Position numbers and translations under genes: made by a program. Below, in pieces: positions 2,846 to 64,000 of a stretch of 64,000 bases of DNA. The notes under the pieces were generated by a model, which was not told the origin of the DNA, did not search any database, and saw nothing but the letters and a program-made list of their open reading frames with translations. The stretch is taken from NCBI GenBank assembly GCA_016744705.1, contig JADGDU010000002.1, forward strand, positions 186,001-250,000, given 5' to 3'. The number at the start of each line of letters is the position of its first letter. Within the stretch, counting starts at the first letter, position 1. Source of the DNA: Candidatus Krumholzibacteriia bacterium (lineage in GTDB: Bacteria; Krumholzibacteriota; Krumholzibacteriia; LZORAL124-64-63).

Positions 2846-3661
2846 ATGAGTGAACAAAAGCCACAAACCGGATCCGAATTCATTCTTACTTTCGAGGATA
2901 GCGCCGACCGGGTACCAGTCTTGATGATTCACGGCTTCCCCCTCAACAACACCATGTGGGATGATCAAGTTGCCAGCCTGGCCCATGTGGCGCGCCTGAT
3001 CACCCCTGATCTGCGCGGCCACGGCCTTACTGAAGCCACCGATATTTCTCCCTACACCATGGAAATGATGGCCACCGACTGTATTCACGTTCTGGACTCC
3101 CTGGATATTGATGGCCCTGTGGTTGTGGCTGGCCTGTCCATGGGCGGATACATCGCTTTTGAAATTTGCCGCCGCTTCCCCGAACGAGTGTCGGGACTGA
3201 TTCTGGCCGCCACCAAGGCCAGTGCCGATACTGATGAGGCCCGGGCAAACCGGGAGGCCTCGGCCCGTATGGCTCTGGACGAGGGTGTTCACCCGGTGGT
3301 ATCGAGTTTGATACCCAAGCTCCTGGCTCCTGCCGCTTACGAAGACAATCCCGATCTGGTGGAATATCTGGAAGAGATGATGCTTTCCGCCTCCGCTGAA
3401 GGAGTCGCCGGTGCCCAATTGGCCATGAGCCTGCGACCAGATTCCAAGGGAGACTTAAAATACCTTCAAGTGCCAACTTTAGTTGTGCATGGCAAAGAAG
3501 ACCAACTGATCCCCGTGAGTGAAGCTGAAATCATGGCCGAAGGAATTCCCGGAGCAAAGCTGGAGCTGATCGAAGGGGCAGGCCATATGGTAAATATGGA
3601 AGAGCCTGAAGCATTCAACGAAGTGGTCCGGGAGTTTTTGGTTTCATTTTACGATGTCTAA
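2846..3661 (+). CDS. Alpha/beta-hydrolase fold protein
   Basis: A cytosolic hydrolase of 271 residues with no signal peptide. The oxyanion region (MIHGFPLNNTMWD), nucleophile elbow GLSMGG, acid in VHGKEDQLIP and histidine in GAGHMVNMEEP are all in the expected order, giving a complete Ser-Asp-His triad. It resembles 3-oxoadipate enol-lactonase and small esterase subfamilies, but the substrate cannot be read from sequence. I chose the ATG at 2846 because a purine-rich AGAAAGAAGA precedes it. An upstream in-frame TTG (2789) would add 19 residues that do not look like protein. It stands alone, 130 bp after the peptidase gene. Confidence 0.88.
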   Translation: MSEQKPQTGSEFILTFEDSADRVPVLMIHGFPLNNTMWDDQVASLAHVARLITPDLRGHGLTEATDISPYTMEMMATDCIHVLDSLDIDGPVVVAGLSMGGYIAFEICRRFPERVSGLILAATKASADTDEARANREASARMALDEGVHPVVSSLIPKLLAPAAYEDNPDLVEYLEEMMLSASAEGVAGAQLAMSLRPDSKGDLKYLQVPTLVVHGKEDQLIPVSEAEIMAEGIPGAKLELIEGAGHMVNMEEPEAFNEVVREFLVSFYDV

Positions 3662-3800
3662 ATCCTGAAGGATCCGACATCAAGGTTGCAAGACCAAAAG
3701 CTCTGCTTCTTCCAGCGGGACCTGGGATCCCAAATATAGTGTGCATCAACGACCCTCCGGTTTTGAGAGCAATGCCCAGATATTCTCTCTGCTCCCCAAA

Positions 3801-4727
3801 TCATGGCGCAGCGCCAGGTTTCCCCTCGGTCCGGTTGTCATAATACCGAGTTGTAGGATAAGCGAAATCAATGGTGTCTTCTTTGCTGAAGGAGGCCAGA
3901 ATTTCCTCCCAGATTGCCGTGGTGGTAGTCCTTCGTTTACGTGGCTCGCAAATGTAGCGCATGGTTAAAACCACTCCGCTGTCCGCCACATGGGTCCAGA
4001 CGATAGGCGTCAGGTGTTGGAAAAAAATCATGTATTTACGACTAGCTTGGCGCACTTCTTCCGCTGCCACGTGATCCTTGATGGAGTTGTGCCGTTGCAG
4101 GATTTCATCCAGAATGATTTTGGCCTTCTTCCAATCGCTTTCGAAAGTGACCATGACCGAAAGCTCGTCCCAGATGAACTTGAAGCCGGAAGTGTAGTTG
4201 GCCAGGGCCTGCTTGAAAACCCAACCATTGGGGATGTGGATGATGCGGCCGGTGCTCTGGTCAGCGTCGACCCAGTTGCCAATTTCCACCAGGGAGAATT
4301 GGAACAGACGAAGGTCGATGACATCACCTCGGTGTTCCCCCAACTGGATGCGGTCACCCACAACGAAGGGTTTGCGGATGGCGATGAAGATCCAGCCGGC
4401 GAAATTCACCAGGGGATCTTGCAGGGCAATGGCCAGCCCGGCGGAAACCAAGCCCAGGTAAGCGGTCCAGCCACTCAGACCTCCGAACCAGATGACCAGG
4501 GTGCCGAAGAAGAAGATGAACCCAAGCAGGTAGTTGAAGCTCTTGGTGGCAATGTAGCGGCGTTGGACATCATCAGTGCGACGGTCCACCATCTTTTGGA
4601 TGACAAAACGGCCCACAATCACTGCACCCCAGAGGCCCAGGGTTAGTATTATGTCACCCAATCGGGGAGCCCCCAGTCCCAGGTGTGTCTGGCTCCACTG
4701 CAGAGCTGTTTCAATCCATTGATTCAT
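3801..4727 (-). CDS. MscS-family small-conductance mechanosensitive channel
   Basis: A 308-residue inner-membrane channel. Hydrophobic segments lie near residues 24-44, 62-82 and 86-112; the third carries the glycine/alanine-rich pore helix (GLVSAGLAIALQDPLVNFAGW). The MscS beta domain follows (KPFVVGDRIQLGEHRGDVIDL, then IPNGWVFKQALANYTSG), and then the alpha/beta tail. Family members open on membrane tension to release solutes during hypo-osmotic shock. The short N-terminus gives three membrane segments, the minimal MscS topology. GAGGAAG lies just upstream of the ATG. It is a single gene, convergent with the hydrolase at 2846-3661; the 139 bp between them hold no gene. Confidence 0.92.
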   Translation of the reverse strand: MNQWIETALQWSQTHLGLGAPRLGDIILTLGLWGAVIVGRFVIQKMVDRRTDDVQRRYIATKSFNYLLGFIFFFGTLVIWFGGLSGWTAYLGLVSAGLAIALQDPLVNFAGWIFIAIRKPFVVGDRIQLGEHRGDVIDLRLFQFSLVEIGNWVDADQSTGRIIHIPNGWVFKQALANYTSGFKFIWDELSVMVTFESDWKKAKIILDEILQRHNSIKDHVAAEEVRQASRKYMIFFQHLTPIVWTHVADSGVVLTMRYICEPRKRRTTTTAIWEEILASFSKEDTIDFAYPTTRYYDNRTEGKPGAAP

Positions 4728-4800
4728 TTTCTTCCTCGCAGATCGGGTTTAGGTCTTTCTGGCCGATCATACCACTTCCCAAGAAAGAGAGCGAATGGAA

Positions 4801-4847
4801 GGTTGTGCCTCTGAAATTGTGTTAGACACAAATTCAAAGGCACAACC
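4801..4847. repeat. 47-bp imperfect palindrome
   Basis: Two 21-base arms (4801-4821 and 4827-4847) are complementary with two mismatches around the five-base loop TTAGA. The outer arm reads GGTTGTGCC / GGCACAACC. No T-run follows on either strand, so it is not a classical terminator. It lies between the mscS-type gene and the terminator of the operon beginning at 13358. The right arm resembles a sequence at 13483-13506 in the 3' untranslated region of the cytochrome gene. Confidence 0.75.
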
Positions 4848-4866
4848 GAAGAGGGATGATAGAAAA

Positions 4867-4912
4867 GCCCACCTGTTGTCATTCCTTTAATACAAAAGGC
4901 CAACAGGTGGGC
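4867..4912 (-). terminator. Intrinsic terminator of the eight-gene operon
   Basis: A perfect 12-bp stem (GCCCACCTGTTG / CAACAGGTGGGC) encloses an inner five-bp stem (CCTTT/AAAGG). Read on the minus strand, it is followed by TTTTCTAT. It starts seven bases after the last gene of the operon. Confidence 0.8.
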
Positions 4913-4918
4913 AAAATG

Positions 4919-5872
4919 TCAGCGGGACAAGAAATCCGCAATAGCCTCATTCGTTTCTTCAGGCTTTTCGAACTGCACAAAATGTCCACATTTAGGCAAC
5001 ATTTGCAATTCTCCATTCTGAAGTTTCGCCACCCCAGGCACGGCCACTGTGGCCGTTTCTCCGCCATGCAGGAAACGGTTGGGAATGAGATTATCATTCT
5101 CTCCGAACAGCACCAAAGCGCGGTGAGGGATTTCTCCAAGCCGGTCATATACCGGTGCATCAAGCATGGCCGCCACATTCAGACTGACGGCGTAACAGTA
5201 CCGGTCAAAATCGGATGCTCCACGAATCTGGATGCGGTCCGTGATCATGAAATCGGCCTCTTCGGGCGCATCGTAGAAATTGGATTTCAGATTGATGCCA
5301 ACCCCTCGGACAGTGGTTTCGGAAACGAACTTGGCCGAGACAACCCGTCGCATCCAATCCCCTTCTCCATCGGTGAAGGTCTCAAACCCGGCAGGCGAAA
5401 TGAGAACCAGGTCTTTCACCGTTTCAGGATACTCGAGAGCGGAAACCAAAGCGATTTGCCCTCCCATGGAGTGCCCCACATAGACCGCTTGGTCCACGCC
5501 CAGCCCATTCAGAAATTCCTTCAGAACCTGGGCATAGAATTCCAGGCTGTACTCGTAATAACCTTTATCGCTTTGCCCATAACCGGGCAAATCAACTGCC
5601 AGGACACGATGGTCCCGACTCAGGGCGTCAATGTTCCTGCTCCAGCCTTTGGCATTGCTACCAAGGCCATGAATCAACAGCAGCACATCACCCTGGCCTT
5701 CGTCCACGTAACCCAATTCAATGTTGCGAACCGTGGCGGTTTTCACCGCATACCCGTACTCGATTTCATTAAACTCAGCAGCGGGCAGGTGATACCAATC
5801 GCCTGATGAAGCACAACCCTGGAGCGCCATGATCAAAACCACTCCCGTTAAAACAAACCTTATGGAACGCAT
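4919..5872 (-). CDS. Lipoprotein alpha/beta hydrolase (exported esterase/lipase-like)
   Basis: A 317-residue lipoprotein. The N-terminal hydrophobic stretch ends in the lipobox ALQGC, so the mature enzyme should be lipid-anchored in the envelope. The hydrolase core has LLIHGLGSNAKGW, nucleophile elbow VGHSMGGQ, acid in LFGENDNLIPNRF and histidine in PKCGHFVQFEKPEE, a complete triad. The start is the ATG at 5872 because AGGAGGTGAG precedes it at good spacing; a GTG three codons upstream lies inside that ribosome-binding site. It is the last gene of an operon with an outer-membrane barrel, a sodium symporter and an acyl-CoA ligase. I infer that it releases a carboxylic acid from an ester before uptake; the substrate is unknown. 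Confidence 0.9.
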   Translation of the reverse strand: MRSIRFVLTGVVLIMALQGCASSGDWYHLPAAEFNEIEYGYAVKTATVRNIELGYVDEGQGDVLLLIHGLGSNAKGWSRNIDALSRDHRVLAVDLPGYGQSDKGYYEYSLEFYAQVLKEFLNGLGVDQAVYVGHSMGGQIALVSALEYPETVKDLVLISPAGFETFTDGEGDWMRRVVSAKFVSETTVRGVGINLKSNFYDAPEEADFMITDRIQIRGASDFDRYCYAVSLNVAAMLDAPVYDRLGEIPHRALVLFGENDNLIPNRFLHGGETATVAVPGVAKLQNGELQMLPKCGHFVQFEKPEETNEAIADFLSR

Positions 5873-51981: not shown

Positions 51982-52587
51982 ATGTCTCACATGTTCTCTA
52001 TGAAAAAAATGACCGGAGCTCTTCTCTTGCTCCTGATCGCCATCCCCCTGACAGCCCTGGCTATCACTGAACCCGATACGGAAACCTTCTATGAGGATGC
52101 CATGACTGTCAACGGCACCGATATGGTCGTCACAGGGGTAGCCTTGCGTGAAAAGACATTTATGAAGGTTGATGTTTATACCATCGTTTCCTACGTAAAA
52201 AAAGGGGTCAGCCTGGGCGAAGACAAAGCCACCGACCTGCTCAATCTGGAAGAGCCAAAAATGCTGCAGATGGACCTCACCCGTGGCTTCAGTAACGAAA
52301 AACTCAAGAAAGCCTTCAGTGAAGTCATCGAAGAAAACTATGAAGACATGAGTGCCTTCCAAAGCGACATGGACACCTTCCTGGGTTATTTCACGGCCGA
52401 TGCTGAAGATGGCGACAAACTGGTTTTCGGATACTGCCCTGCCGAAGGTCTGACCACCTTCTTGAATGGTAAAGAAATGGGTGTCATCACCAACGTGGAT
52501 TTCATGAAAGCATTGTGGACTGTCTGGTTTGGTGCTGAGCCTGCCGACAAGGACATGCGGGACAATCTGGTAGCTGCCTATAAGTAG
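51982..52587 (+). CDS. Exported chalcone-isomerase-like protein
   Basis: A 201-residue protein with a signal peptide (MKKMTGALLLLLIAIPLTALA). The mature part shows VVTGVALREKTFMKVDVYTIVSYV, LDLTRGFSNEKLKKAFSEVIEENY and FVFGYCP-like motifs of the CHI-like (chalcone isomerase-related) family. In bacteria these are mostly non-catalytic fatty-acid-binding or envelope proteins rather than flavonoid enzymes. The start may be the ATG at 51982 or the one at 51991; AAGG is better spaced for the latter. It lies 116 bp before the MotA/ExbB-like pair on the same strand; a weak terminator lies between. Confidence 0.88.
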   Translation: MSHMFSMKKMTGALLLLLIAIPLTALAITEPDTETFYEDAMTVNGTDMVVTGVALREKTFMKVDVYTIVSYVKKGVSLGEDKATDLLNLEEPKMLQMDLTRGFSNEKLKKAFSEVIEENYEDMSAFQSDMDTFLGYFTADAEDGDKLVFGYCPAEGLTTFLNGKEMGVITNVDFMKALWTVWFGAEPADKDMRDNLVAAYK

Positions 52588-52703: not shown

Positions 52704-53639
52704 ATGGCCACCAAGAGTCACCGAATTCTGTATCAAATGGGCGTTGTTTCGCTTCTGGCGGTCGTTGCCCTGGCCGCCATTCTTCTCCTCAAATTTGAAA
52801 CGGCCATGGCCTGGGCCATGGGCGATTTCCGCCCCCTGGTGCTCAATGGCATCATCTTCGTGCTCTTTCTCCTGGGCACCCTGCAACTGTATAAGGCCAT
52901 CCGCCACTATCAATTGCAGGAAAACCAAATCAACGAATACATGCAGCGCCGGCAAGAGGGTGAATGGAGTGCCGAAATTCTGGATTCCATGCCCAACTCC
53001 AGCTTGATTGCCAACCGCTACCGCACCATCCGCGACCTCTTCAATGGTGGTGGGCCCGTGGATCACGGGGCCATCAGCGCCATCATGATGGCAGAAGAAA
53101 GCCTGCACCAATCGTTCCCCCGCTTTGTGAACAATGTTTTGATACTGACAGGTGTTTTTGGCACTGTCAGCTCATTGATCTTTGCCCTGGTGGGAGCCGG
53201 CGATGTGCTCCAGGCTGCCTCGCCCGATGCCGGCATGGGACTGCTTCTGTTGGGCATGAACACCGCCTTGACGACCACTGCTACAGCCATCGTCTGCTAC
53301 TTCTTCTTCACTTTCTTTTTCCACCGCCTGACAGATTTGCAGACCTGGGTTTTCAGTCAGGTGGAGCGCGCCGCTTTGGTGCACATGGTGCCTGAGTTTA
53401 CTTATGAACCCGAAGCCTTAAATCATCAAACCAAATTGCTCATTGAAGAAGTGAAATTGATGGTTGGAGAAACCCGGCAGAGCCTGAGCGGTATCCAATC
53501 AGCCCTGCAACAAACTGATTCTGCCGATTCGGAAAAAGCTCTGCTGGCAGCCATGGAGAACCAGAGCCAAGCCCAGCAATTGCAATACGAAAAACTGCGC
53601 AAGGTTCTCATTGAAGGCTTCCGTCTGGACGGGAGATAG
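52704..53639 (+). CDS. MotA/TolQ/ExbB-like proton-channel protein
   Basis: A 311-residue inner-membrane protein with four membrane helices, near residues 11-30, 44-64, 143-165 and 174-210. The last two carry the channel signature: LILTGVFGTVSSLIFALVGAG matches the LxxxGLLGTVxGLxxA motif, and NTALTTTATAIVCYFFFTFFFHRL matches the ALxTTAxGLxxA helix with the conserved threonines. Four helices and a ~75-residue cytosolic loop are closer to MotA than to ExbB. A ~95-residue helical tail follows. Relatives use proton flow to drive a periplasmic partner. The partner gene starts two bases after the stop codon, so the two are co-translated. Confidence 0.9.
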   Translation: MATKSHRILYQMGVVSLLAVVALAAILLLKFETAMAWAMGDFRPLVLNGIIFVLFLLGTLQLYKAIRHYQLQENQINEYMQRRQEGEWSAEILDSMPNSSLIANRYRTIRDLFNGGGPVDHGAISAIMMAEESLHQSFPRFVNNVLILTGVFGTVSSLIFALVGAGDVLQAASPDAGMGLLLLGMNTALTTTATAIVCYFFFTFFFHRLTDLQTWVFSQVERAALVHMVPEFTYEPEALNHQTKLLIEEVKLMVGETRQSLSGIQSALQQTDSADSEKALLAAMENQSQAQQLQYEKLRKVLIEGFRLDGR

Positions 53640-53641
53640 GC

Positions 53642-54580
53642 ATGCATCAGTTCCGTGGTTTCAACGATCTGCGGGTCAACCGCCAGAATCAGTCTTCAGA
53701 AACTTCCATCTGGCCTTCTTTCACCGACATCATGACCGTCATCCTGATGGTCTTTATGCTGACCATGGTGGTGGTCATCATCAAAAATGCCGACCTCATC
53801 AACCAAATTCGTCTCAGCCGCAGCATGCAGGCCGAAAGCGAAACGGCCCTCAGAAACAACGTCCAGGTTATGGCAGATCTGCGTTTGCGGAACACCGATT
53901 TGGAAGAAGCAGTGCGCTCGGCTCGTATGGAGATCATCCTCTTGAGCGACGAGATGGCCCGCCTGGACGACAATCTGGAGATCAAAGCTGCGGCCATTGC
54001 CCGTCTGGCTGGTGAAAAGGAGGAACTGGAGGAAAATCTGCGCCTGATCAAGATGCAGATGATCGCCAAGGATCAGCAGTTGGATGACGCACAAGCCATG
54101 ATTGGCGGTATCCGTGATGAGGCAGAACGTGCCAACCGGGAGTTGAGCCAGCAATTGGCCCAATTGTTGAGCCAGTTGGAAGCCAACGAGACAACCATGC
54201 TAACGCTCACCGATCAGAAAACGGACCTGGAATTAGCCTTGGCTCGGCAGCGAAAAGATTTTTCCTCACTGGAAGACAAGTACCTCAAATTGGTCAGGCC
54301 CGCTCGCAGTTCTCAGGGCAAACAAGTGGTCTCGGTTCAATTCCTGAATATTGACGGAGAACCTCGCTACCTACTCAAAGATCTGGAAAAAACCACCTGG
54401 AACCCTCTGCCCAAAGAGGTTCTCTTTGCCCGCTTGAAATTGCTGAAAGATGAGTTGGGTACAGACCTGTATATCAAGGTTGTGATCCCTGACGACAGCG
54501 GTCTGTCATACAACGAAGCGTGGGATTTCACCAAGACGATTCTATCGCAATTCGATTATTATTACACTGACGGATGGTGA
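53642..54580 (+). CDS. MotB/ExbD-like partner with long periplasmic coiled coil
   Basis: A 312-residue protein with a short cytosolic tail, then one membrane helix containing the key acid: D29 in PSFTDIMTVILMVFMLTMVVV, the position of the proton-carrying Asp in MotB, ExbD and TolR. Residues ~50-220 are a nearly unbroken coiled coil. The last ~85 residues (from VVSVQFLNIDGEPRYLL to the C-terminal YYYTDGW) form a small domain with LYIKVVIPDDSGLSYNEAWDFTKTIL, which resembles the ExbD/TolR periplasmic fold. There is no OmpA-type peptidoglycan-binding motif. It should act with the upstream channel protein. Its cargo or target is unknown. Confidence 0.85.
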   Translation: MHQFRGFNDLRVNRQNQSSETSIWPSFTDIMTVILMVFMLTMVVVIIKNADLINQIRLSRSMQAESETALRNNVQVMADLRLRNTDLEEAVRSARMEIILLSDEMARLDDNLEIKAAAIARLAGEKEELEENLRLIKMQMIAKDQQLDDAQAMIGGIRDEAERANRELSQQLAQLLSQLEANETTMLTLTDQKTDLELALARQRKDFSSLEDKYLKLVRPARSSQGKQVVSVQFLNIDGEPRYLLKDLEKTTWNPLPKEVLFARLKLLKDELGTDLYIKVVIPDDSGLSYNEAWDFTKTILSQFDYYYTDGW

Positions 54581-61716: not shown

Positions 61717-64000
61717 TCAATCATCGTCCATAATCACACCATTGTTCTCAAAGGGAGTTCCCAACACGGCATTGACCGGATCAATGGCCAACTGAAGAAT
61801 GAAAGCCTCCTGGTTTTCGTGCTCGAAATCTTCCACCGTGATGATCGTGATGGTGGTATCAACCGTACCGGGCATCATGGAGAGCAATGCAGAGCTCGGC
61901 GGGATAAAGTCAGAGATGCCATCAGTAGAGCCCTGATCATAACCCAGACGGAAGAACACCGGAACGATGGTCTGCTCACTCAAGTGAACAGTAAAATGCA
62001 TGTTATCACCTTCGGTGGCGGTGGCCCCCAAGGGAATGGTCAGCTCGGGTTGGTCTGCATCCTCAACGTAACCGGTGGCGCTGATGGGCATACCCAGAAC
62101 CGCGTCCACCGGACTGTTGAGCATGACGGTGAAATCTTCCAGGGTCCATTCAGGACCGCCGTCGGCTATGGCAGGCACAGGCACAGTAAAGGTCGTGGCC
62201 CCGGCCGGCACCACAAAGGGGCCGGTAAAACTATCGTCGTAATCAATACCGGCGCGCACTGCTGTGCCGTCAATGAAGTTCACATTGAACATCACTTCGA
62301 CTTCACTGGACCAACTCAGGTTGACTATAAACTCCACGTTCTCACCTTCGAGCCCAGTGGCGTCCCCAGCCCAACTCAACTCAGGCGGATCCATATCGGT
62401 GATGGTCCCCAGGCCGCTGTTGTCTGCACTGACGGTGGCATTGGTGGGAGAAACCACCGTAATGACGAAAACCTCTATGGCCGCATCCCCACCATCACCG
62501 GCGTAAAATTCCACAGGGACAGTGGTCGCTGTTTCCCCAGCCAGGAAGGTGTAGGGACCTGTGGCGGTGTTATCGAAATCGGCCCCCATGGTGGCAGAAT
62601 CATTGGCAAATTGGAGATTAAATTGGATGTCGGCGGTGCTCGGAGCATCGAGGAAAACATCAAAGATGGCGATCTCCCCTTCATCGGCGGCGGCCGACCC
62701 AATAGAGAGTTCAGGAGCATCCACAATGGTGGCCTCCAGGTCCACCACTCCCAGGGCCACGTTGGCGTTGGAAATGTTGGCCCTGATGATTTCGTCGGCC
62801 TCTGCGGCCAGTTGATCATCCAGGAAGGGCACGGTGAAGCTCACTTCAGTGGCCATGGCGGCTATGGTGTGGGTGCCGATGTCGGCAAAGGTATAATCGA
62901 GCCCCTCACCCTGGGATGTTCCCATCAGGAGATCCAGATCGTAAGTGGTCTCATCCTGACGGGGAGTGGTCAACATAACAGTGAACTCCCAGACGGAGCC
63001 TTCGTTCAAAGTGGTGATCAGGGCCTGAACATTGAGGGACGGAAATTCGTTATCCGTCAGAGTGCAGAAGGCATCCTCGGTGCCACAACTGCCGCTTGAA
63101 TTCACCATGTCGGCCAGGGTGATCACAAACGTTTCGTTGTCATCGTCATGAAGGTCATCCAACAGAGTGACGGGAACCACCAGGCTGCCTGAACCGGCGG
63201 GGATGGTCACAGTTTCTGATACCGGAGTATAATCCACATCCGCTTCAGCGGTTTGATCTGCCGTTTGCACATGAAATATAATATCGGCAGAGCTCGTCAC
63301 TGGAGCCAAAGAAGCGTCTCTCAATTCCACCGTAAAGTTCACCACAGAGTCAGACTCGATGGCCCCCACATCGGAGACCATAAGGCATGGCTGATCATCA
63401 TCCACCAAAGTACAGGTGGCTACGAGCCCCACAAAACAGGCATGATCAGCGGCCGTGATTTCCAATTGGAAATATTCCAGAAGTGCCTCGGCTGCCGTAT
63501 CGTTGGCCAAAGGAACCGAAAACTCAGCGCTGGTTGAGTTGGCTGGGATTGTCCAGATTTGATTGCTGATAGTTGTGAAATCGAAGCCACCCAGAGCATC
63601 CACTTGATCGGCAACCGGATCCAGGCCATCACCATCGCGAGTGCTGACTGTCAGGTCCATGGCATCAATGCAGGGATTTAAGAGTTCGATGCGGAAAACG
63701 GCCTGGCCTTCATTCTCATTGAACACGACATCGTTTAAAGTGATGGTCTGGAGTTCGTCGTTCAAAATAGTGCACACGGTGGGCGGATCATTCCAGGCTG
63801 CATTGGCGCTGATATTACTGAGGCTGGCTGTGAACGTTTCATCTTCTTCGTAGAATACGTCGGCATTGAGAACCACCGGAATTTCCCGCTGGGTTACGCC
63901 TGCTTCCATCACAAAGTTCTGGTTCAGGGCCACATAATCTTCTCCGGCCAAAGCGGTGCCATCGGCAGTGCTGAAGGTGAAGCTGATGGGCACTGTTTCG
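61717..64000 (-). CDS. Large Calx-beta repeat surface protein, C-terminal part
   Basis: The frame is open to the right edge, so the N-terminus lies outside. The visible 760 residues are about six to seven Calx-beta domains of ~110 residues, each with a strand pattern like VTFxVxLxxxTxxxVxFxxxxxDGTAxAGxDYxxxxxxxxxxPAGxxxxxxxVPxxxDxxxEExExFxxxLxxxxNAxxG; acidic DxxxE clusters are likely calcium ligands. The protein ends abruptly after GVIMDDD with no sorting domain or anchor. Proteins of this type are calcium-stabilised surface or adhesion proteins. The stop is 70 bases before the EEP gene start. The identity of the missing N-terminus is unknown. Confidence 0.9.
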   Translation of the reverse strand, partial: ETVPISFTFSTADGTALAGEDYVALNQNFVMEAGVTQREIPVVLNADVFYEEDETFTASLSNISANAAWNDPPTVCTILNDELQTITLNDVVFNENEGQAVFRIELLNPCIDAMDLTVSTRDGDGLDPVADQVDALGGFDFTTISNQIWTIPANSTSAEFSVPLANDTAAEALLEYFQLEITAADHACFVGLVATCTLVDDDQPCLMVSDVGAIESDSVVNFTVELRDASLAPVTSSADIIFHVQTADQTAEADVDYTPVSETVTIPAGSGSLVVPVTLLDDLHDDDNETFVITLADMVNSSGSCGTEDAFCTLTDNEFPSLNVQALITTLNEGSVWEFTVMLTTPRQDETTYDLDLLMGTSQGEGLDYTFADIGTHTIAAMATEVSFTVPFLDDQLAAEADEIIRANISNANVALGVVDLEATIVDAPELSIGSAAADEGEIAIFDVFLDAPSTADIQFNLQFANDSATMGADFDNTATGPYTFLAGETATTVPVEFYAGDGGDAAIEVFVITVVSPTNATVSADNSGLGTITDMDPPELSWAGDATGLEGENVEFIVNLSWSSEVEVMFNVNFIDGTAVRAGIDYDDSFTGPFVVPAGATTFTVPVPAIADGGPEWTLEDFTVMLNSPVDAVLGMPISATGYVEDADQPELTIPLGATATEGDNMHFTVHLSEQTIVPVFFRLGYDQGSTDGISDFIPPSSALLSMMPGTVDTTITIITVEDFEHENQEAFILQLAIDPVNAVLGTPFENNGVIMDDD

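Follow-up and report, generated by a model that had tools for sequence, protein, structure and literature searches.

A conserved MotA/ExbB-type gene pair whose B subunit is predicted to join its membrane helix to a TolR-like head by one continuous coiled coil

Introduction

The heads of the motor subunits MotB, TolR and ExbD are hung on flexible linkers. Output on the cytoplasmic side has a precedent in MotAB, which acts on FliG, and has been proposed for ZorAB. GldM, a B subunit, forms a long shaft of its own in the periplasm, measuring 18 nm (PMC9389320). In the TPH-vWA proteins, an Asp-bearing helix is fused to a periplasmic transducer and paired with a TolQ-like gene; no TolR, TonB or TolA gene is linked to them, and they have been proposed to turn inside the pentamer (PMC12204202).

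Here we analyze a gene pair, A and B, in a window of 64,000 nucleotides (the whole stretch of DNA that was analyzed) from a Candidatus Krumholzibacteriia bacterium. A literature search, which covered open-access PMC papers only, found no description of the A/B family.

Results

Gene A (52704..53639, plus strand) encodes a predicted 311-amino-acid channel subunit of the MotA/ExbB/TolQ/ZorA type with four membrane helices, and gene B (53642..54580 including the stop codon, plus strand) encodes a 312-amino-acid protein with a predicted membrane helix, a coiled coil and a TolR-like head. The two genes lie on the same strand, and the gap between the stop codon of A and the ATG of B is 2 bases. The upstream neighbor of the pair, at 51994, encodes a chalcone-isomerase-like protein, and the downstream neighbors, on the opposite strand, encode a YaaA-like protein and an ABC-F-like ATPase. 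No TonB or TolA gene, no Zorya gene (zorC, zorD and zorE included) and no flagellar gene adjoined the pair. Rfam and tRNA scans across the window returned nothing. Farther along the window, positions 61717-63993 encode a long Calx-beta repeat protein that is open towards the window end.

Profile searches of the source genome found, besides A and B, nine other MotA_ExbB matches, ten ExbD matches, nine TonB_C proteins and a single FliG, the last on a different contig from the pair. At least six ordinary ExbBD loci (on contigs C33, C66, C70, C75, C78 and C111) had a TonB_C gene within ~3 kb, whereas no TonB_C gene was near the A/B pair. When the A profile was run against the whole genome, the sole match at E≤0.001 was A itself. 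An ExbBD-like pair at G000:C66:45869-46666, with weak scores of 49 and 38 bits, had no TonB_C gene nearby and was the only ordinary ExbBD pair in the genome for which this was so by these searches.

The A protein has four hydrophobic helices (~13-31, 45-63, 145-163 and 180-206). An AlphaFold model, for which the alignment contained 69 relatives, had a mean pLDDT of 89.8, and its best fold matches in Foldseek were ExbB, TolQ and ZorA (probability ~1.00). PF01618 (MotA_ExbB) was matched by 69 of the 69 relatives at E≤1 and by the window's own A under the cutoff. The third membrane helix (residues 140-168; 53121..53207, plus strand) contains an invariant G150-V-x-G-T154 that aligned with the GLLGTV/GLFGTV motif of ExbB/TolQ proteins from the same genome. 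Likewise, the fourth (residues 180-207; 53241..53324, plus strand) contains invariant G184-M185, A188 and T191-T192 and aligned with the A-x-x-TT of those proteins. By analogy with ExbBD, TolQR and ZorAB, the Thr residues of the fourth helix are candidates for a Thr ring opposite Asp29 of B. At the cytoplasmic C terminus, a GFRL motif (residues 305-308; 53616..53627, plus strand) did not vary among the 69 aligned relatives, in spite of variation in the 70 residues ahead of it.

The B protein has one hydrophobic helix, at residues 29-47, containing PSFTDIMTV, and its membrane helix segment (residues 27-49; 53720..53788, plus strand) is marked by invariant W24-PSFTD29-IM31 and N49. Asp29 is presumed to be the ion-carrying residue. 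Adjacent A and B genes, an Asp in the B helix and Thr/Ser in TM3 and TM4 of A are gene-level marks of 5:2 ion-driven rotary motors, and all of them were present. In the AlphaFold model of B, a single helix of residues 29-217 runs from the membrane into the head, with pLDDT of ~76-97 from residue 31 to ~210 and low values at residues 1-27 and 308-312. The head follows with a predicted beta-beta-(beta)-alpha-beta-alpha topology. A preliminary description of this DNA had proposed a four-helix MotA/ExbB-like channel, a partner two bases on with the Asp-bearing helix and a coil of ~170 residues (~25 nm), and an absence of TonB, TolA, zorC, zorD and flagellar genes nearby; the helices and fold of A, the gene coordinates, the predicted B helix and the genes around the pair bear these points out.

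The head (residues 218-312; 54293..54577, plus strand) is predicted to have a TolR/ExbD fold. Its best global Foldseek match was E. coli TolR (5by4; probability 0.98, TM-score 0.59 by target length), with which it superposed at 3.1 Å over 92 columns at a weak E value of 0.16; the matches below 5by4 were chance-like, with clearly lower TM-scores. Residues P220, R222, Y277, P283, L288, A293 and D305-Y306-Y307 are invariant in the head, and SGL, Y290 and W294 nearly so. PF02472 was matched weakly by 19 of 69 B relatives (best E of 0.0026). Among the isolated heads of ten relatives, two matched, with E values of 0.003 and 0.08, and aligned to the periplasmic part of the profile, the best score being 18.0 bits against a cutoff of 25.4; the window's own head gave no match. 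Moreover, when B was compared, profile to profile, with eight ExbD proteins from the source genome, the similarity of the head was at chance level and that of the membrane helix was modest. The ExbD/TolR-like C terminus that had been proposed for B is thus upheld in fold and weak in sequence. We conclude that the sequence evidence for kinship of the head with ExbD is weak and that the predicted fold provides moderate evidence of likeness to ExbD/TolR; because the profile-profile comparison was at chance, the TolR assignment is made mainly on fold. Homology with ExbD and MotB would put the head on the periplasmic side, the flank charges of the membrane helix being indecisive.

Neither A nor B passed a curated family cutoff in Pfam or NCBIfam, and searches of Pfam, NCBIfam, PADLOC, PHROGs and PDB sequences gave partial matches only. 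Those of B, to ZorB and to PRK09039 coil proteins, covered the membrane helix and coil. Against PDB sequences, eukaryotic coiled coils overwhelmed the results for the full B profile, and most of what the A profile found was helical artifacts. B matched the PRK09039 "peptidoglycan-binding protein" (NCBIfam NF006543) over residues 14-186 (E=5e-8), and the two proteins share a membrane helix followed by a long coil. The match, however, ended at profile position 175 of 350, so that the C-terminal half is unshared, and scored 33 bits against a cutoff of 305. The preliminary description had named, as what would count against it, a full-length match of B to a characterized MotB, GldM, TolR or ZorB family, and none was found.

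Comparison with described motors gave likenesses to each and identity with none. The pair resembles ExbBD/TolQR (PF01618, PF02472) in the channel fold of A, the G-x-x-GT and TT motifs, the Asp-bearing B helix and the predicted fold of the head, and differs in that a B coil of ~150-550 residues replaces the short linker of TolR/ExbD, A has four hydrophobic helices, the scores lie below the Pfam cutoffs and the locus has no TonB/TolA gene. Its likeness to Zorya ZorAB (PDB 8qyd and 8vvn) lies in the sequence of the membrane region of B and of the core of A, in the number of membrane helices in A, which is four, and in the presence of ZorA among the fold matches of A, whereas the pair lacks the OmpA-like peptidoglycan domain, the long ZorA tail and zorC/D/E. 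Flagellar MotAB has the D-x-M membrane motif and the general channel plan in common with the pair, but B is without a plug and linker and without an OmpA-like domain, and the pair lies away from a flagellar locus. In GldLM/PorLM of type IX secretion, the B subunit is likewise a long periplasmic shaft. The GldM shaft, however, consists of four folded domains rather than a coiled coil, the locus and taxa are different, and no sequence link to GldLM/PorLM was found; GldM-type beta-rich periplasmic domains were not encountered in B by family search or in the AlphaFold model. Finally, TPH-vWA proteins have a vWA domain and mostly heterologous pairs, in contrast to the single B with a coiled coil and TolR-like head found here; neither family search nor fold match gave a vWA domain after the Asp helix of B.

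Residues 50-217 of B (53789..54292, plus strand) form an uninterrupted heptad coiled coil of ~168 residues, which would extend ~25 nm if straight. The coil contains no proline, its hydrophobic period is 3.50, and its core keeps one register at the membrane end and at the head end. Coil length was compared across 119 members as the distance from the membrane Asp to the RPAR motif with which the head begins, both anchors being located by profile. The distance ranged from 173 to 572 residues, and the coil proper from ~150 to 550 residues (22-82 nm). Modulo 7, 94 of the 119 members had a residue class in common, a further 21 were 3 below it, and the remaining 4 were divided between two more classes. 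When changes were reconstructed by unordered parsimony on a tree of A and the non-coil parts of B, whose deep nodes are weakly supported, 51 changes in coil length were obtained: 37 were multiples of 7, 11 were 4 modulo 7, 3 were 3 modulo 7, and none of the 51 was 1, 2, 5 or 6 modulo 7. The excess of multiples of 7 over the expected 1/7 corresponds to a binomial P of ~1e-20, for parsimony events that are not fully independent. Moreover, 21 disjoint pairs of close relatives that differed in length fell in classes 0, 3 and 4 (13, 3 and 5 pairs, respectively) and in no other class.

Adding or removing 7 residues leaves the heptads in phase, and a step of 3 or 4 makes a stutter, which coiled coils tolerate. 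Where the coil carried the 3-residue shift, the register at the head end was displaced by exactly 3 residues, and the longest members kept the same phase along ~540 residues, again with no proline. The internal length of the head (80-88 residues, mostly 84) had no modulo-7 pattern, and the length of the C-terminal tail of B, which served as a control, varied with no pattern. Two loci, L157 (B at 3123-5238, plus strand) and L158, encode coils of ~465-550 residues in one heptad phase that are visibly made of 14-residue repeats; a straight rod of that length would measure ~70-80 nm. We conclude that the B coil is a continuous rod, fixed in register at both ends. Any long coiled coil that is stable should change length in this heptad-conserving way, and the pattern is therefore proof of a continuous rod and not of rotation.

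A rod could serve purposes other than the transmission of torque. Continuous coils that are joined to the membrane and held in fixed register are typical of signaling proteins, and the pair might be a sensor or valve: a gated leak of ions would respond, by way of the rod, to envelope spacing, to tension or to damaged peptidoglycan, and the ion flow would be the signal, with little mechanical output. Its presence as a single-copy chromosomal pair with no dedicated partner gene would suit such a role. Both subunits, however, keep the catalytic features of their torque-generating relatives, and we regard the sensor or valve as improbable.

The main rival to a B dimer that acts as a drive shaft is one in which B stands still: the head would bind peptidoglycan, the coil would be a long tether, and A would turn around B with a cytoplasmic output, for example via GFRL. 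The fold match of the head is to TolR, from the Tol motor, which fits an anchor, as does the invariance of the cytoplasmic GFRL end of A in 69 sequences; from its conservation, GFRL is a possible docking motif for a cytoplasmic partner. Furthermore, lengths that vary more than threefold suggest that an exact rod length may be unneeded. Known anchored B subunits, by contrast, have a flexible linker or plug ahead of the anchor, whereas the B helix runs from membrane to head with no predicted break and keeps its register at both ends. We consider the anchored arrangement rather unlikely.

To determine its distribution, the pair was sought in 84,980 species genomes, which yielded 326 relatives, and the best 80 of the 326 were kept. 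These came from Krumholzibacteriota, a few Desulfobacterota, Zetaproteobacteria and many sulfur-oxidizing or symbiotic Gammaproteobacteria. A adjoined B in 78 of these 80 loci, and in the other two the contig ended at or within A or B. In evenly drawn samples, the pair was present in 55 of 369 gammaproteobacterial genomes (~15%) and in 1 of 297 Desulfobacterota, the latter being the seed genome itself. Within the window's own family, it occurred in 13 of 38 genomes, and it occurred in 0 of 60 others. Ten of 10 genomes tested had a single copy. The copies from Krumholzibacteriota and Desulfobacterota formed one clade (support of 0.965). Because both proteins recur together in several phyla and have residues that never vary, we conclude that they are not a chance pair of open reading frames.

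Neighbors of the pair varied from clade to clade, and the pair was the sole feature common to all clades. Clade-specific neighbors, named by eye and not by profile search, included genes for a Slp-like lipoprotein, a glycerate-kinase-like protein and RND-pump-like proteins, and no conserved partner gene that would indicate an outer-membrane target was found among the neighbors of the kept loci. The expectation of a conserved pair with no zorC/D, tonB or motility neighbors thus held for the window and fits the other clades, where neighbor families were partly identified. By eye, three gammaproteobacterial loci (L051, L080 and L105) had the pair flanked on one side by a ferrochelatase-like gene and on the other by two RND-pump-like genes, for an adaptor and a pump, on the same strand. 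A predicted secreted coiled-coil protein with an OmpA-like C terminus (by eye) was encoded a few genes upstream of the pair in L047 and L067, and in L100 such a protein was encoded downstream, on the other strand.

The distribution bears on two further readings. The best non-Pfam profile matches were to ZorA2 for A (E=7e-7) and to ZorB for B (E of ~2e-6), over the membrane region, and the pair might accordingly serve in anti-phage defense of the Zorya kind. Against this, zorC, zorD and zorE are absent beside the pair, B is without the OmpA-like domain of ZorB, the genomes tested held one copy each amid varied chromosomal neighbors, neither A nor B was found among 72,556 plasmids, and A was absent from 50,697 phage records; we consider a defense role very improbable. 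Alternatively, in Krumholzibacteriota the pair might drive a type IX-like secretion or gliding machine in the place of GldLM. The source genome encodes a SprA-like protein (G000:C68:39359-40621; E=3.5e-20), and positions 52-2715 of the window encode a protein that combines FlgD_ig and Peptidase_C25_C with a weak Por secretion tail; together these hint at type IX secretion in Krumholzibacteriota; a search for GldM domains gave no match but was uninformative by its own control. Nothing of a type IX system adjoins the pair, however, and the same pair is common in Gammaproteobacteria. To our knowledge, Gammaproteobacteria lack type IX secretion. A motor of that machine is, in our estimation, extremely improbable.

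Discussion

On balance, the best explanation, and one that we hold to be somewhat probable, is that A and B make up a 5:2-type motor driven by ions, with the B dimer as its own rod. In the arrangement that we infer, five A subunits would surround two B subunits in a motor related to ExbBD, TolQR and ZorAB, and A and B would be turned against one another by ions moving past the B residue Asp29 and the helices of A that bear Thr. From the membrane, the two B helices would continue, hinge-free, into one parallel coiled coil that takes the TolR-like head deep into the periplasm, there to contact either peptidoglycan or a partner in the outer membrane whose gene lies elsewhere. The B dimer would then combine the roles of stator partner and rod. 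Precedents for a B subunit that is its own shaft are the GldM shaft (PMC9389320) and the TPH-vWA proteins (PMC12204202).

That B might serve as its own rod, one that TolA or TonB supplies in other systems, had been suggested in the preliminary description, and the continuous coil and the conserved pair support the suggestion in part; the length, which reaches ~550 residues, is not tuned to one distance. Coils of that size (~82 nm) are too long to stand upright in an ordinary periplasm, and rods of ~80 nm thus argue against a simple periplasm ruler. The species that have them may hold the rod tilted, bent or flat against the wall; otherwise the model of a simple span would be wrong. A bolder form of the preferred reading, which we offer tentatively and as possible rather than probable, is that the pair represents a class of envelope motor that is widespread and as yet undescribed. 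In it, the two B chains would make up one rigid coiled-coil drive shaft that passes rotation directly to the far periplasm with neither TonB nor TolA, and the shaft would have grown from ~22 to ~82 nm by whole heptads across lineages.

For ExbBD, TolQR and GldLM, the question whether the B subunits of 5:2 motors are turning shafts or standing anchors is open. The A/B family is a natural test of the two, as it combines a continuous rod, a head at the far end and a register that was kept through many changes in length. The rods of ~80 nm are a puzzle in themselves. As the pair is present in about 15% of the sampled Gammaproteobacteria, passes no curated Pfam or NCBIfam cutoff and was not found described in the open-access literature covered, an envelope system may have gone unrecognized there.
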